DNA from: a virus
Length of the DNA: 33,375 nucleotides
Virus record (IMG/VR): IMGVR_UViG_3300029787_000187
Coordinates: 1-33,375 of that record
Strand: one strand, 5' to 3'
Positions 27,441-33,375 of the stretch are shown in pieces. Both the position numbers and the translations under genes were made by a program. The first letter of the stretch is position 1, and each line of letters opens with the position of its first letter. The notes under the pieces were generated by a model. It saw only the letters and a program-made list of their open reading frames with translations, made no database searches and had not been told where the DNA came from.

Positions 27441-27468
27441 ATTATAACACATATTATTAGCAAGTCAA
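27441..27468 (-). promoter_or_regulatory. Sigma70-type promoter TTGACT-N16-TATAAT
   Basis: Minus strand: TTGACT at 27463-27468, 16-bp spacer, TATAAT at 27441-27446. The -35 overlaps the TGA stop of the upstream gene. It is the only promoter in the window with both host-type elements, and no palindromic box lies upstream. It would transcribe the three small genes down to 26904 and perhaps the PAAR region with host RNA polymerase. Confidence 0.65.
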
Positions 27469-29192: not shown

Positions 29193-29420
29193 CTAATTGC
29201 CTTCGCTGTCCTCGAAGTCGTCAGAGTGAAAGAGTGGTCTCATCCAGTTCTTAAAGTCTTCTAGTTTAAATCTAGCAGCGTCCTGTAAGAACTTCTCACC
29301 ACACATGGCAATGTCGCCTGTGTCTGTGTACTCTGCTACTACCTCATCATAGCAGCATCTAAGCATGTCCTCATTTGTGAGGTCGTAGTCTGTTGAATCA
29401 ACGTAATTAAAGAATGACAT
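29193..29420 (-). CDS. Small acidic hypothetical protein
   Basis: 75 residues from the ATG at 29420 (MSFFNYVDSTDYDLTNEDML); a start at 29459 would lie upstream of the -10 box and is rejected. Rich in Asp/Glu with Cys at several positions (RCCYDE, MCGEKF), ending HSDDFEDSEGN. Predicted mainly helical. It is preceded by TATAAT 25 bp upstream and followed by a GC hairpin. Acidic small early proteins in phages often bind host proteins, but nothing specific is recognised here. Confidence 0.6.
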   Translation of the reverse strand: MSFFNYVDSTDYDLTNEDMLRCCYDEVVAEYTDTGDIAMCGEKFLQDAARFKLEDFKNWMRPLFHSDDFEDSEGN

Positions 29421-29473: not shown

Positions 29474-29501
29474 GTGTATGTGTGGGGATGTTTATATATT
29501 G

Positions 29502-29693
29502 TCACAATGAGTAGTCCCATGGTGCGGGTTCGGATATCTTCTCTACTAGAGAATAGAATGCGTCCTCACTGTCGTCATCTATCCATCCTAAGTCCATGAA
29601 ATAGGTCGCCATCTTGACAAGGACTGACTCCTCATCCTCACTCATTGTTAATTCTCTTTTGAATTCAGCAGGTGTGCTGTTATCTCTAGTCAT
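29502..29693 (-). CDS. Small acidic hypothetical protein
   Basis: 63 residues: MTRDNSTPAEFKRELTMSED then EESVLVKMATYFMDLGWIDD and DSEDAFYSLVEKISEP. Predicted helical and acidic. A GGAG eight nt before the ATG gives a reasonable ribosome site. It follows the 60-aa gene by 36 bp without an obvious promoter, so it is probably in the same transcript from 29940. An alternative start at Met17 (TMSED) lacks a ribosome site. Function unknown. Confidence 0.6.
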   Translation of the reverse strand: MTRDNSTPAEFKRELTMSEDEESVLVKMATYFMDLGWIDDDSEDAFYSLVEKISEPAPWDYSL

Positions 29694-29939: not shown

Positions 29940-29945
29940 ATTATA
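29940..29945 (-). promoter_or_regulatory. -10 box TATAAT with upstream palindrome
   Basis: Minus-strand GTGTATAATAG, extended by TG as in extended -10 promoters, then AAGTATAAAC. No -35 is recognisable. The perfect palindrome at 29978-29997 lies about 32 bp upstream, close to the spacing seen for the related boxes. Confidence 0.6.
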
Positions 29946-29977
29946 CACGGGGTCACCGTAGAATAGTGAATGTATTA

Positions 29978-29997
29978 TGACAGTAATAATACTGTCA
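29978..29997. promoter_or_regulatory. Perfect palindromic box TGACAGTA-N4-TACTGTCA
   Basis: Eight-base arms with ATAA centre, perfectly complementary. The same layout, with mismatches, occurs in the boxes upstream of the genes at 30377, 31209, 31792, 32267 and 33261. It is the best symmetric version, so it defines the likely half-site TGACAGTA. It could also form a transcript hairpin after the 30035-30208 gene, but no U tract follows. Confidence 0.6.
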
Positions 29998-30034
29998 CAA
30001 TAGAGGTTGACTTGCTTGGTCAGCTGCTTTAGCA

Positions 30035-30208
30035 TTAGAGTTGATTCTCCCATACGGTAGTTTTAAATTTCTTGACTGCCTTGTCTAACAGTTTCATGTC
30101 CCCGTCGCATATGTCGCACGGTTCCTCATCCTCTAGACCTATGAATAAATGATTGATATCATTTACTAGATCTAGGTATGCTAGCATGTTTGGTGTTAGG
30201 TCGTTCAT
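30035..30208 (-). CDS. Small protein with CxxC motif
   Basis: 57 residues from ATG at 30208: MNDLTPNMLAYLDLVNDINH then LFIGLEDEEPCDICDGDMKL and KKFKTTVWENQL. A single PCDIC pair (C32/C35) is visible; one CxxC is not a full zinc site, but dimeric or redox use is possible. The start is 1 bp beyond the stop of the preceding gene (TAAG-ATG), so they are coupled. Longer upstream frames lie inside the neighbouring gene. Function unknown. Confidence 0.6.
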   Translation of the reverse strand: MNDLTPNMLAYLDLVNDINHLFIGLEDEEPCDICDGDMKLLDKAVKKFKTTVWENQL

Positions 30209-30209
30209 C

Positions 30210-30377
30210 TTAGTGCCTATCCGAGATGTACCAGACACCGTGTCTGTTGATTTCTTGAGGTTTAAACTGCCTTGCTGCCATTGCGTGAAGTGCTGCGAGT
30301 ACAGCAGCATCCTTGGATGCTGTCTCATTTACGAGGACTTGTCCATCGTACATAGGTTTTAGATTTGAGTCAAACAT
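30210..30377 (-). CDS. Small hypothetical protein
   Basis: 55 residues from ATG at 30377: MFDSNLKPMYDGQVLVNETA then SKDAAVLAALHAMAARQFKP and EINRHGVWYISDRH. A short beta hairpin is followed by an Ala-rich helix (DAAVLAALHAMAARQF). The longer frame from 30506 is rejected because it would run through the TATAAT at 30402. Leader from the -10 is 24 bp. Function unknown. Confidence 0.6.
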   Translation of the reverse strand: MFDSNLKPMYDGQVLVNETASKDAAVLAALHAMAARQFKPQEINRHGVWYISDRH

Positions 30378-30401
30378 AGTTTTCTTGTTTGTTACTCTTC
30401 T

Positions 30402-30459
30402 ATTATAGTGTGGATTACACATCGTGTGTGCTCCCAGTGGACACTTTATCAACTGGTCT
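30402..30459 (-). promoter_or_regulatory. -10-only promoter with palindromic box inside upstream gene
   Basis: TATAAT (minus) at 30402-30407, then a 29-bp gap, then a box at 30437-30459 reading GTGGACACTT-N5-ACTGG on the plus strand. The box lies within the 3' coding part of the 30415-30693 gene, over the codons for PVDKVST. No -35 is recognisable. Spacing agrees with the other copies (28-30 bp). Confidence 0.6.
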
Positions 30460-30693
30460 ACCCTCGGTTGCTTTAAAGTCGCACTTGATGTAGTCTTGAA
30501 TTTCATCTATGACATCACCCAGACTATCATCCCAATAGTTTCTGGCTTCCTCCATAAACTCATGCTCACCCAGTTTATCAAAGTAGTTGAATAGGTCATT
30601 GCTGACATATTCCTCAAGGTCTTTGGTTGACATATTGTCAACCATTCTCTCTGTTAAGAACTCTTTGAGTTCTAGTAGTAATACTCTATCCAT
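30415..30693 (-). CDS. Small acidic helical hypothetical protein
   Basis: 92 residues: MDRVLLLELKEFLTERMVDN then MSTKDLEEYVSNDLFNYFDK and EEARNYWDDSLGDVIDEIQD, ending KVSTGSTHDV. Almost wholly helical and acidic. The ATG follows directly on the preceding stop (TAA-ATG), so it forms a two-gene operon with the DUF1281-like gene. Its last codons overlap the regulatory box of the next operon, so part of that sequence is under dual constraint. Function unknown. Confidence 0.65.
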   Translation of the reverse strand: MDRVLLLELKEFLTERMVDNMSTKDLEEYVSNDLFNYFDKLGEHEFMEEARNYWDDSLGDVIDEIQDYIKCDFKATEGRPVDKVSTGSTHDV

Positions 30694-31209
30694 TTATAGA
30701 TACCCCGCAACTTCACAACCTGGTTCATCATAGAACCAACTCATGCTTAGGTCGTCGAATTGCTCACTAATAGCACTATGGATTTCTTCGGGTGGTGACC
30801 ATGCGGTTTCAAATGTGACCTCGAATCCGTGTGGCATCTCTGAATCCTCTATCTCTAGTGAGTAAGCATCCCACTTAGTTCCCCAGTTGTGGCATCTCCA
30901 GTTGTACCATCTATCGTCGTTAATGTCGGTAGATTCAAAGTATAACCCCTTACCAAATCCCTTATCTTTAAAGACTGGTAACTCACCCACCTCACCTTTT
31001 GGTTTATCCCATGAGTATTCTTTGAGAGTGTTTTCAGTGAGTGGAACTTTTGACCAGTCTGGTTCAGGGATGAATGATCCAAAAACCGTGTTTGTGGTCT
31101 CTGTGCTGTCGTCATTCTTTAGTGCCTTACTAAAGATTGCGTGTAGCTTTAGAATCGCTGTTGTGTCCTCTGAGTAGAATGTGACTCGGTTGTGACAATG
31201 ATTAGGCAT
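30694..31209 (-). CDS. DUF1281 / Api92-like ferredoxin-fold protein
   Basis: 171 residues. The start MPNHCHNRVTFYSED and the later RWYNWRCHNWGTKWDAYSLE followed by EVTFETAWSPPEEI match the DUF1281/YubB (Api92-like, ferredoxin-like fold) family carried by phages and plasmids. The hallmarks 'NHC-x-N-x-[LVT]', 'W-x-x-x-NWGTKWD' and 'F-x-T-AWSPP' are all present at the expected order and length. The biochemical role of the family is unknown. It is first in an operon with the 92-aa gene, read from the boxed promoter at 31233-31289, with CAGGAA before the ATG as ribosome site. Confidence 0.82.
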   Translation of the reverse strand: MPNHCHNRVTFYSEDTTAILKLHAIFSKALKNDDSTETTNTVFGSFIPEPDWSKVPLTENTLKEYSWDKPKGEVGELPVFKDKGFGKGLYFESTDINDDRWYNWRCHNWGTKWDAYSLEIEDSEMPHGFEVTFETAWSPPEEIHSAISEQFDDLSMSWFYDEPGCEVAGYL

Positions 31210-31232
31210 AAATTCCTGTGTTGTATATTAAT

Positions 31233-31289
31233 ATTATACTGCCACCTGGTGCAGTATGGGAACTATATGGACACTTAAATTAGTGGCAC
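31233..31289 (-). promoter_or_regulatory. -10-only promoter with palindromic box
   Basis: TATAAT (minus) at 31233-31238, 28-bp gap, box at 31267-31289 (plus-strand TGGACACTT-N6-TGGCAC). Between the two lies a smaller imperfect hairpin, TACTGCCACC/GGTGCAGTA (31237-31256), overlapping the -35 position. The leader to the ATG at 31209 is 23 bp. Confidence 0.65.
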
Positions 31290-31320
31290 ATAGGAAGCTG
31301 ACTATGAGTGCTAGCTTTGT

Positions 31321-31326
31321 TATAAT
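31321..31326 (+). promoter_or_regulatory. Possible plus-strand -10 facing an opposing gene
   Basis: TTGTTATAAT on the plus strand, 31 bp to the right of the box at 31267-31289, with CTGACT 17 bp upstream as a partial -35. It points into the 3' end of the minus-strand gene 31338-31505. No convincing plus-strand gene follows, so it would make antisense RNA or be a relic. Confidence 0.35.
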
Positions 31327-31337
31327 GGAGGTAGAGC

Positions 31338-31505
31338 TCATAATTCCTCTATGTCCTCTATTACCCATTCGCCTGCATATTCGTCCTCAGCTGGATATGC
31401 ATTAACATTCTTATGCAGCAGCTCTTCGGCTGCCTGCATAGTATCTGCTTCGACTAGCACGGTAAAGTAATTCACCTCGCTGCACTGGATTCTAAACTGG
31501 TTCAT
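31338..31505 (-). CDS. Small hypothetical protein
   Basis: 55 residues from ATG at 31505: MNQFRIQCSEVNYFTVLVEA then DTMQAAEELLHKNVNAYPAE and EYAGEWVIEDIEEL. The beta-alpha-beta pattern 'Y-F-x-V-x-V-EAD-x-x-x-A-E-E-L' resembles small phage proteins with an 'A..EA...' core. It shares ATGA with the preceding stop. The longer frame to 31532 overlaps the neighbour without need. Function unknown. Confidence 0.62.
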   Translation of the reverse strand: MNQFRIQCSEVNYFTVLVEADTMQAAEELLHKNVNAYPAEDEYAGEWVIEDIEEL

Positions 31506-31792
31506 TTGAATGCAACCTCTCTCATATCGCATGAGTACATCACTGCATCTTGCCTGAACTGTTTTTTGTATGCTTCGCCCACTTCAAAGAGTGCATCTTC
31601 GTTCTTGTCATCAGAAACAGAAATGCAAACGATTGCTTCCATGGTGCCTTTATAGATGCCCATCCCGTGAGTAATAGTTGCATACTCAAGTCTTGTAAGG
31701 ACCTCATCCTTAATGAATTCTTCTAACATTTGATTAGTTACGGTTCCGCTGTCTTTGATGTTGCGTCCGACTGTTAGAGTGGTTGTTTTCAA
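31502..31792 (-). CDS. Small conserved hypothetical protein (TTG start)
   Basis: 96 residues from TTG at 31792: MKTTTLTVGRNIKDSGTVTN then EEFIKDEVLTRLEYATITHG and GTMEAIVCISVSDDKNEDAL, ending CDMREVAFK. GAGG lies 6 nt upstream of the TTG, and the TATAAT is 25 bp upstream, so the rare start is well supported. Predicted alpha/beta, with a three-stranded sheet. First gene of a two-gene operon with the 55-aa gene. Function unknown. Confidence 0.65.
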   Translation of the reverse strand: MKTTTLTVGRNIKDSGTVTNQMLEEFIKDEVLTRLEYATITHGMGIYKGTMEAIVCISVSDDKNEDALFEVGEAYKKQFRQDAVMYSCDMREVAFK

Positions 31793-31817
31793 GGTTGACC
31801 TCGTGATTTATATTCTT

Positions 31818-31874
31818 ATTATAAGGCTATATGGGTGCAAGTGGTGCAGTAGTGGACACTTAAATTACTGGCAC
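31818..31874 (-). promoter_or_regulatory. -10-only promoter with palindromic box, shared with divergent gene
   Basis: TATAAT (minus) at 31818-31823, 28-bp gap, box at 31852-31874 (plus-strand GTGGACACTT-N5-ACTGGCAC). The gap contains TGCACC repeats. The same box lies 33 bp from the plus-strand TATAAT at 31908, so it may serve both directions. No -35 is recognisable for the minus promoter. Confidence 0.65.
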
Positions 31875-31907
31875 ACTCTATGCACCATATGCTGCACCAG
31901 TTGCTAT

Positions 31908-31913
31908 TATAAT
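31908..31913 (+). promoter_or_regulatory. TATAAT abutting the plus-strand start codon
   Basis: Plus-strand TATTATAATAG with only three bases before the ATG at 31917. If it were the -10, transcription would begin at or after the ATG, so either the true -10 lies further upstream or the leader is missing. Tandem TGCACCA copies lie just upstream (31882-31899). Confidence 0.4.
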
Positions 31914-31916
31914 AGT

Positions 31917-32123
31917 ATGAATACAACATTCCAAGAATTCATAGACTACGTATTATCATTCTATGGTGATGCAGGTCTATATCCACAAGGTAGAACACGC
32001 GAGCAAATTGCATATGCAACTCTCTCCTATCTTGACTCATGCAATGATCAAATTACATGGGGTAACGGTGACAGTTTAGACCGTGAGCGTGTAAGAGATG
32101 TAATGAATCATCTTTATGACTAA
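31917..32123 (+). CDS. Small conserved hypothetical protein
   Basis: 68 residues: MNTTFQEFIDYVLSFYGDAG then LYPQGRTREQIAYATLSYLD and DSLDRERVRDVMNHLYD. I recognise the 'MNTTF-x-x-F-x-DYVL-x-FYG...GDS-x-DRERVRD' pattern from cyanophage small genes; function unknown. First of two plus-strand genes in the otherwise minus-strand region. There is no ribosome site and no leader between the TATAAT and the ATG; the frame is open upstream to 31755, but similarity supports this ATG. A hairpin follows 16 bp past the stop. Confidence 0.7.
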   Translation: MNTTFQEFIDYVLSFYGDAGLYPQGRTREQIAYATLSYLDSCNDQITWGNGDSLDRERVRDVMNHLYD

Positions 32124-32139
32124 GCTGAAACGACCAAAT

Positions 32140-32161
32140 CCACGGGTTTCAATGCCCGTGG
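32140..32161 (+). terminator. Hairpin after the 68-aa gene
   Basis: Perfect 7-bp stem CCACGGG/CCCGTGG with an eight-base loop, 17 bp past the stop. No U tract follows, so termination would be weak; it may be a transcript 3'-end hairpin. Confidence 0.5.
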
Positions 32162-32179
32162 TCATCACTCCAGACAGTG

Positions 32180-32237
32180 TGACACTTGAACAAACTGTCC
32201 ACTGTTGCCCCAAATGTGGATTTACATCCCCTATAAT
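32180..32237 (+). promoter_or_regulatory. -10-only promoter with palindromic box, plus strand
   Basis: Box at 32180-32202 (TGACACTTG-N4-AAACTGTCCAC), 29-bp gap, TATAAT at 32232-32237, then AAGAACATACAC. It is the plus-strand counterpart of the minus-strand promoters, in the same orientation relative to its gene (GTCCAC end nearest the -10). The leader to the ATG is 29 bp. Confidence 0.65.
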
Positions 32238-32266
32238 AAGAACATACACAACAAAGGATCATTTAA

Positions 32267-32497
32267 ATGAAACTTAATTCAATCGCTAAGAATCAAACAG
32301 AAGTCACCCTCTCAAATGGTGATCAGGTTTTCTTCTCATATAGAACACCTGTTGCATGCTACATCGCTAAGAAAGGTAGATATGCAAGAACTGATGCATG
32401 GTACTCATCAACCACAACCAGACATATTAACAAATGGTTGGGCAATCTTGAATACGACGTGATCCCACAATCATACCTAGACGAAATCTCTCTCTAG
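32267..32497 (+). CDS. Small conserved phage protein (DUF8033-like)
   Basis: 76 residues: MKLNSIAKNQTEVTLSNGDQ then VFFSYRTPVACYIAKKGRYA and STTTRHINKWLGN. The pattern 'MKLNSI-x-KN-x-T-E-V-x-L-x-NG-x-x-V-x-FSY-x-TPVA...TTT-x-RHINKW' is one I associate with a small, widespread phage family (DUF8033-like); role unknown. AAAGGA 8 nt before the ATG is a strong ribosome site. Its transcript would end at the strong hairpin at 32568-32606. Confidence 0.75.
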   Translation: MKLNSIAKNQTEVTLSNGDQVFFSYRTPVACYIAKKGRYARTDAWYSSTTTRHINKWLGNLEYDVIPQSYLDEISL

Positions 32498-32567
32498 GTC
32501 CCTTGGGCAGTAGGCATGGGTTGCGTTAATTAATCGCATTTAAATCGAACCTCTACTTAAGTCCCAT

Positions 32568-32606
32568 TAAAAATACCCCACCAGGTCGCCCTGTGTGGGG
32601 TTATTT
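32568..32606. terminator. Bidirectional intrinsic terminator between convergent genes
   Basis: CCCCAC (32576-32581) pairs with GTGGGG (32595-32600), with an inner CAGG/CCTG pair and one bulged base. The flanks AAAAATA and TTATTT give an A/U tract on either strand. It sits between the convergent genes 32267-32497 (plus) and 32623-32814 (minus), as expected for a shared terminator. Confidence 0.8.
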
Positions 32607-32622
32607 CAGTGCAACTTGACAA

Positions 32623-32814
32623 TCAGGAATGCACGTGGTAACACATGCCTTCCATAATATAGTAGTCAGCTACGTCCAATAGCTCTGGGTAATCCATTAT
32701 TAGATCCGTATCTAATAGGAATTGTATCAGATCTACGGATCTTTCAGCATTTAATAAACCTTTATGATATTCTATGATAATATCCTTATAGTTCATAAGT
32801 TTAGTCATTATCAT
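32623..32814 (-). CDS. Small helical conserved phage protein
   Basis: 63 residues: MIMTKLMNYKDIIIEYHKGL then LNAERSVDLIQFLLDTDLIM and YPELLDVADYYIMEGMCYHV. The 'Y-x-D-I-x-x-x-YH-x-G-x-L...F/Q-x-LLDT...A-x-x-x-I-x-x-G' pattern is found in many small phage proteins of unknown role. AAGGA 8 nt upstream supports the first ATG; Met7 is an alternative. Overlaps the preceding gene by 14 bp. Last gene of a three-gene operon from 33287. Confidence 0.65.
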   Translation of the reverse strand: MIMTKLMNYKDIIIEYHKGLLNAERSVDLIQFLLDTDLIMDYPELLDVADYYIMEGMCYHVHS

Positions 32815-32959
32815 AGTATTTATCCTTATTTTGCTTAATTCTCTTTTTATTGGATATCATATCCATATATCCATTCTTATCAAGATCCTCAGTTTCATAC
32901 ATTTCTCTCTTCTTTCGAGAAAAGTCACCACTTTGGTATCTTTTGCTACTTTTTCCCAT
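32801..32959 (-). CDS. Small charged hypothetical protein
   Basis: 52 residues: MGKSSKRYQSGDFSRKKREM then YETEDLDKNGYMDMISNKKR and IKQNKDKYYDND. Very rich in Lys, Asp and Tyr and probably disordered. It lies between two genes of the same operon, with a TAATG overlap at its start and a 14-bp overlap at its end, which is the main support. Function unknown. Confidence 0.55.
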   Translation of the reverse strand: MGKSSKRYQSGDFSRKKREMYETEDLDKNGYMDMISNKKRIKQNKDKYYDND

Positions 32960-33261
32960 TAGTCTTTAATCTGGGCTAAAGTACCACTTCTTACCAGTTC
33001 ATTAAATTTCTTCCCTAATGAAATATGTTGTTCTTTTACGAACTTTTCTATCTCTTTCACAAATTCTGATAGGTTTTCAGAATAGTCATACAAATATTCA
33101 GTTTGGTTACCTTGGAAGATTATGGCAACTTTCCCTGACTTTACACTAATCTGATTAATAGCTGTACTTATTTCAGAAATGTCGAAAGTGACATCTTTTA
33201 CCACTTTCCGCGACTTTCTGCGTTTTGTAACAGTTTTTACCTTTTTGACAGTTTCTGCCAC
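32959..33261 (-). CDS. Small protein with basic N-terminus (GTG start)
   Basis: 100 residues from GTG at 33261: MAETVKKVKTVTKRRKSRKV then VKDVTFDISEISTAINQISV and EKFVKEQHISLGKKFNELVR. AAGGAG 5 nt before the GTG and the -10 25 bp upstream fix this start; a frame to 33345 would run through the promoter. A strongly basic tail is followed by an alpha/beta domain and a long helix. The tail could bind nucleic acid, so it is a candidate early DNA- or RNA-binding protein, but no known domain is recognised. Confidence 0.62.
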   Translation of the reverse strand: MAETVKKVKTVTKRRKSRKVVKDVTFDISEISTAINQISVKSGKVAIIFQGNQTEYLYDYSENLSEFVKEIEKFVKEQHISLGKKFNELVRSGTLAQIKD

Positions 33262-33286
33262 TTTTGCTCCTTTTGTGTATATTCTA

Positions 33287-33343
33287 ATTATAGCAGAGGT
33301 TCTCGGAGAAATGACCAAAAGTGGACAGTTTAATTTCTGGCAC
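33287..33343 (-). promoter_or_regulatory. -10-only promoter with palindromic box
   Basis: TATAAT (minus) at 33287-33292 followed by TAGAATATACAC, 28-bp gap, box at 33321-33343 (plus-strand GTGGACAGTT-N5-TCTGGCAC). No -35 is recognisable. It drives the three-gene operon 33261-32623. A second, divergent promoter might lie beyond the window edge. Confidence 0.65.
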
Positions 33344-33375
33344 ACAATCGGTTGACTTTCGAGTGACCGCAGGCT

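Follow-up and report, generated by a model that had tools for sequence, protein, structure and literature searches.

The middle promoters of T4 (the MotA/AsiA system) possess a -10 hexamer without a -35 and carry an upstream activator site instead. Among the T4-like cyanophages, a novel element, conserved within this group, reportedly controls the early genes of Syn9 and P-TIM40, in work by Doron et al. that appeared in 2016 in ISME J. On the host side, the GntR regulator PMM1637 binds the CGRE1 motif in the promoters of the Yfr2 small RNA (sRNA) genes, and GntR mediates the induction of Yfr2 (PMC6778093), which suggests that this protein is an activator. Here we analyze a recurrent palindromic box in a 33,375-base virus fragment (IMG/VR record IMGVR_UViG_3300029787_000187; hereafter, the window) that derives from a T4-like cyanophage, with the Prochlorococcus phages P-HM1, P-HM2 and MED4-213 as its closest isolates. 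The box lies at a fixed distance from -10-only promoters and is found in all 11 marine cyanomyovirus isolates scanned. A half-box occurs at the same distance before one family of host sRNA genes, so the virus probably borrows a host regulator to express its first genes. We put at roughly 80% the probability that these boxes are activator sites of -10-only phage promoters and that their most likely binder is the host GntR protein (PMM1637 in MED4), which normally acts at the CGRE1 of Yfr2 genes.

The boxes are located in a run of small genes without functional annotation that adjoins baseplate and tail genes, the same setting as PHM2_044-083 of P-HM2. A preliminary description of the window had listed six boxes with their TATAAT hexamers and downstream genes; all of these were found, with positions right to within 2 bases and correct gene starts (Table 1). 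It had also proposed a fixed spacing and a centre near -52, in agreement with the 27-29 bp that separate box and TATAAT in all six cases and with centres near -52.5. We scanned the window with a matrix derived from 35 box promoters of Syn9, S-PM2, P-SSM4, S-SSM7, P-TIM40 and S-SM1, with the window sequence excluded. Ranks 1 to 6 in the window correspond exactly to the six boxes. Each of these has its TATAAT 27-29 bp away, a distance at which TATAAT is missing from all 12 weaker matches. The chance level is low, with 2 box-TATAAT pairs in total across 200 simulated windows. The idealized form put forward earlier, TGACAGTA-N4-TACTGTCA, proved too narrow, being exact at one site only (29978). The consensus is instead TGTGMCAST-N6-ASTGTCMMM or, as obtained from 68 sites and with the spacer included, TGTGMCAST-TWTWWW-ASTGTCMMM. 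The copy at 30436 is weak, with a score of 14.7 versus 28-34 for the others, and the copy at 32178 contains one additional spacer base. The preliminary list missed the opposite-strand TATAATs of boxes 31266 and 31851 (30 and 32 bp away, respectively), and a degenerate seventh site may be present at 29482-29506.

Box promoters are a class and not a local repeat. A search of 1.05 Mb from relatives and isolates for the box alone, with no -10 criterion, gave 155 distinct boxes. Downstream of them, 80 TATAATs are placed at 26-32 bp, and the remaining positions from 0 to 104 bp together hold 9. The spacing is 27, 28 or 29 bp in 247 members of a set of 273 non-redundant promoters. These promoters show no TTGACA-like -35 pattern (at most about 0.5 bits per position, with TTGACA-like hexamers in a minority), which upholds their earlier designation as -10-only promoters. 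A pyrimidine followed by A is observed at the expected transcript start, followed in turn by an A-rich leader, and the ATG lies 22-28 nt after the -10 in most box promoters. In the same 273 promoters, conservation extends from the inferred start onward as YATAAACAAACA, which resembles but differs from the T4-like late promoter TATAAATA (0 exact matches).

This class is restricted to marine cyanomyoviruses. With up to two mismatches allowed, the 11 marine cyanomyovirus isolates, including Syn9 and P-TIM40, each contain 10-31 matches to the box, versus 0-5 for a reversed control; in these counts a palindromic box may be included once on each strand. The same search yields no box in T4 or Ma-LMM01, two in the Pelagibacter T4-like phage HTVC008M (control, two) and one in the podovirus P-SSP7. 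If a -10 at the right spacing is required, each cyanomyovirus retains 3-14 promoters, whereas HTVC008M and T4 retain none. Syn9 has 4 and P-TIM40 12 matches at the -10 spacing, versus means of 0.1 and 1.3, respectively, when the offset is changed (one P-TIM40 box accounts for two of its matches, having been counted on both strands). Box promoters lie mostly within one small-gene cluster in P-HM2, Syn9, S-SSM7 and P-TIM40. In IMG/VR, at least 119 stretches match at the test spacing and 57 at a wrong spacing; as the first figure is a lower bound, the two do not measure an enrichment. The most widespread box-driven gene family among the isolates is that of a helicase (Syn9 gp75 at 49078, with relatives in S-PM2, P-SSM4, S-SSM7 and P-TIM40), and the box is also present upstream of cobS in several phages (P-SSM4 131785, P-HM2 127350 and IMG/VR loci).

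The box is symmetric and is used in both directions. TATAAT is present at the right distance on one side of 94 out of 241 boxes, on the opposite strand only for 47, on both sides for 23 and on neither for 77, and two of the 23 two-sided boxes (31851 and 31266) lie in the window. At box 31266, the sequence TATAATGGRGGTAGAGCT (31321-31338, +), pointing away from gene 31209, is kept in five relatives, and the opposite-strand TATAAT of box 31851 is found in the window and in five relatives. The divergent partner gene of the latter (31905-32123, +) has its ATG 3 nt past TATAAT or 6 nt past TATTAT in six related loci, and the 31917(+) message may be leaderless if TATTAT serves as its -10. When the two arms of the box were compared as mirror images, no variable pair of positions showed more pairing than in shuffled data, and only 8 of 268 boxes could form a perfect 8-bp stem. 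Since mirrored positions do not covary, the box is a protein site and not an RNA hairpin or terminator, and a dimeric DNA-binding protein is its natural reading.

For a host regulator, a search for the full palindrome in host genomes is too strict a test, and it was a one-mismatch search that led to the half-sites of Yfr2 genes. In 61 genomes of the host genus, this search returned seven matches, mostly of one recurring sequence starting TGTGACAGTTAA, and Rfam identified in the DNA downstream of the recurring match the Cyano-1 sRNA, which is the Yfr2 family. Cyano-1 genes gathered from 41 and 26 genomes provided 59 loci, and the 42 with a recognizable core were used. The exact half-site GTGMCARTT is present between -90 and -40 in 28 of these 42 loci, nearly always at -65 to -58, and is absent from the 225,136 strand-bases that these loci supplied as control sequence. 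Scored with a matrix of the phage half-site, 30 of the 42 upstream regions exceed the 99th percentile set by 1,190 control stretches, with a mode at -64. Furthermore, TGTGACARTTAA has 22 matches in 15 Prochlorococcus genomes (~21 Mb), and all 22 are located 62-66 bp upstream of a Cyano-1 start. If the transcript begins 7 nt past the -10, the phage box starts at -64, the same place as the host half-site. The sequence, position and exclusivity of the half-site therefore indicate one host promoter family.

Among the known systems closest to the phage promoters are the CGRE1-containing Yfr2 promoters (Lambrecht et al. 2018, 2019). In the host Yfr2 upstream sequences analyzed here, the half-site TGTGACAGTT lies at about -64, where the phage box also begins, and it is encountered only at Yfr2 promoters in the host genomes tested. 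The two differ in arrangement, with Yfr2 sites comprising a single good half-site or a back-to-back pair and phage boxes comprising two facing half-sites 6 bp apart. They also differ in number and use, each phage genome containing several to a dozen promoter copies that are often used both ways. Seven of the Yfr2 promoters carry the back-to-back form (AACTGKCAC-N1/2-GTGMCAGTT), which is the reverse of the phage arrangement.

Four Prochlorococcus genomes each contain a single clear match to the GntR domain (PF00392), as does Synechococcus RCC307, where a second match falls below the cut-off. No match is present in HTVC008M, ten cyanomyovirus isolates or two phage genomes from IMG/VR. We infer that the proteins identified are PMM1637 homologs, because each is the sole clear GntR protein of its genome. 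Their DNA-binding region is near-invariant between Prochlorococcus and RCC307, with an identical recognition-helix stretch (LHRNTISKVYRQLE), and such near-identity suits the use of one box for many hosts. The features that would define a CGRE1/GntR target, namely the half-site, its distance to the start and a regulator present in the hosts but not in the phage, were all found, and binding of GntR at the phage box is predicted on these sequence grounds.

In the mechanism that we propose, the phage box, made up of two inverted copies of TGTG(A/C)CAGT centred near -52.5, would act as a stronger, symmetric version of the host site. A dimer of host GntR would occupy the facing half-sites right after infection and, from its position near -52, would contact the host's sigma-70 RNA polymerase in unmodified form, replacing the missing -35. 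Transcription could then proceed from one or both sides of the box, and early genes would be expressed without any prior phage protein. Host GntR would accordingly both bind and activate at the phage boxes, and the box genes would be early genes. The box promoters resemble T4 middle promoters in their -10 without a -35 and in their upstream activator site, and differ from them in that MotA is phage-made and the MotA box lies near -30. Cyanomyoviruses lack motA and asiA, as well as alt, modA and modB (PMC2984593), and an early expression cluster has been described in P-HM2 infection (PMC5082946); the GntR mechanism fits the absence of alt, motA and asiA and the existence of this cluster. Cyanophage promoters with Pho or NtcA boxes also combine a phage promoter with the site of a host regulator (PMC3037559), but sequence and regulator are different.

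The preliminary description knew of no account of this exact box, a statement that now appears doubtful, since the box probably corresponds to the early-gene element of Syn9 and to CGRE1. Given that Syn9 and P-TIM40 both carry the box with its -10 spacing, the box is probably the element of Doron et al. The point of interest is the link to GntR, which may itself have been published.

Several observations weigh against the proposed mechanism. The full palindrome occurs at chance level in 300 host-family genomes (6 matches versus 8 for a reversed control), which means that at host sites only one half is well formed and the other is degenerate, so that they are alike but not identical to those of the phage. 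Moreover, 14 of the 42 Yfr2 upstream regions have no exact half-site between -90 and -40, 77 of the 241 boxes lack an exact TATAAT on either side, and a phage protein may mimic the specificity of GntR.

This last possibility is part of an alternative in which a phage-encoded or virion-injected activator binds the box and the likeness to host Yfr2 sites stems from convergence or mimicry, which we consider unlikely. The preliminary description had inferred a phage regulon with its own activator; a dimeric DNA-binding activator near -52 and a regulon, here extending across marine cyanomyoviruses, are both supported by our analyses, but neither the small genes of the window nor those that cyanomyoviruses have in common yielded a candidate for an activator of the phage's own. 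The full palindrome is specific to the phages, and there are several small cyanomyovirus-only core proteins of no known function that could provide such an activator. However, in the small genes of the window Pfam detects no domain that binds DNA, and hence neither the helix-turn-helix nor the ribbon-helix-helix protein that had been anticipated, and GntR is absent from the phages examined. The genes common to cyanomyoviruses but absent from HTVC008M and T4 (a BLAST list analyzed with Pfam and PHROGs) likewise include no known regulator, and all 22 host sites agree in half-site and distance with a single host promoter family. The most promising small core protein, GC49/phrog_507, gave a low-confidence model (pLDDT 65) with no structural match. 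CobS, which has a short helix-turn-helix-like stretch at its N-terminus, was rejected as a candidate, being also present in the box-less HTVC008M.

Considerably less probable is a main role of the boxes in titrating host GntR as decoys, thereby lowering Yfr2 sRNA, with the promoters being incidental. The many near-perfect copies per phage genome and the action of Yfr2 on many host genes (PMC6778093) would suit this role, yet a decoy needs neither the fixed -10 spacing seen in 247 of 273 promoters nor a missing -35. We give very little credence to the box as a stem-loop that belongs to the upstream gene and serves termination or recombination, similar to T4-like promoter-stem-loop cassettes: it is an inverted repeat, intergenic and within a gene-shuffling region, but its pairing equals that of shuffled sequence and its spacing is tied to the -10. 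Finally, NtcA (GTA-N8-TAC) and Pho (CTTA-N7-CTTA) boxes have been searched for and predicted in cyanophage genomes (PMC3037559), but neither pattern is present in any of the six boxes or shared by the TGTGMCAST consensus, and a known host site of this kind is the least credible explanation of all.

Table 1. Boxes and associated promoter elements in the window. Boxes are delimited as 25/26-mers, and spacing is the number of bp from the box to the start of TATAAT.
Feature	Position	Strand	-10	Spacing (bp)	Gene start	Score	Remarks
Box TGTGACAGTATTATTACTGTCATAA	29975..29999	-	29940-29945	29	29912	28.1	
Box TAGACCAGTTGATAAAGTGTCCACT	30436..30460	-	30402-30407	28	30377	14.7	Weakest of the six
Box TGTGCCACTAATTTAAGTGTCCATA	31266..31290	-	31233-31238	27	31209	29.8	
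Opposite-direction TATAAT of box 31266	31321..31326	+	31321-31326	30			Would transcribe antisense to 31338-31792
Box TGTGCCAGTAATTTAAGTGTCCACT	31851..31875	-	31818-31823 (minus gene)	27	31792	33.7	Between divergent genes 31792(-) and 31917(+)
Opposite-direction -10 TATTATAATAGTATG	31905..31919	+	TATTAT 31905 or TATAAT 31908		31917 (ATG)		Kept in six loci
Box TGTGACACTTGAACAAACTGTCCACT	32178..32203	+	32232-32237	28	32267	29.2	Spacer of 7
Box TGTGCCAGAAATTAAACTGTCCACT	33320..33344	-	33287-33292	27	33261 (GTG)	29.0	
Degenerate half-box TGTGACAATATATAAACATCCCCAC	29482..29506	-	29446	30	gene 29193-29420	0.6	Tentative; first half only

Elsewhere in the window, box-less TATAATs at 27441 and 28332 (-) are preceded by TTGACT at 16 bp and TTGACA at 17 bp, respectively, and are thus ordinary host-like promoters, unlike the box promoters. 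The gene at 31502-31792 (-), downstream of box 31851, has a match to DUF3574 above the cut-off and a weak one to S-adenosylmethionine lyase below it.

As a broader and more tentative proposal, on which we would not wager at even odds, marine cyanomyoviruses as a group might run their first genes through the conserved host GntR/PMM1637, using doubled, symmetric Yfr2-type sites that often serve two divergent genes per box, an arrangement not previously recognized as such. If this were true, the near-invariant DNA-binding region of GntR would explain how one phage can run the same programme in different hosts, and early infection would be tied to the high-light and nitrogen state that controls Yfr2 in the most abundant marine phototrophs. 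The T4 factors that direct early transcription are missing in T4-like cyanophages, and a likely host protein can now be named.

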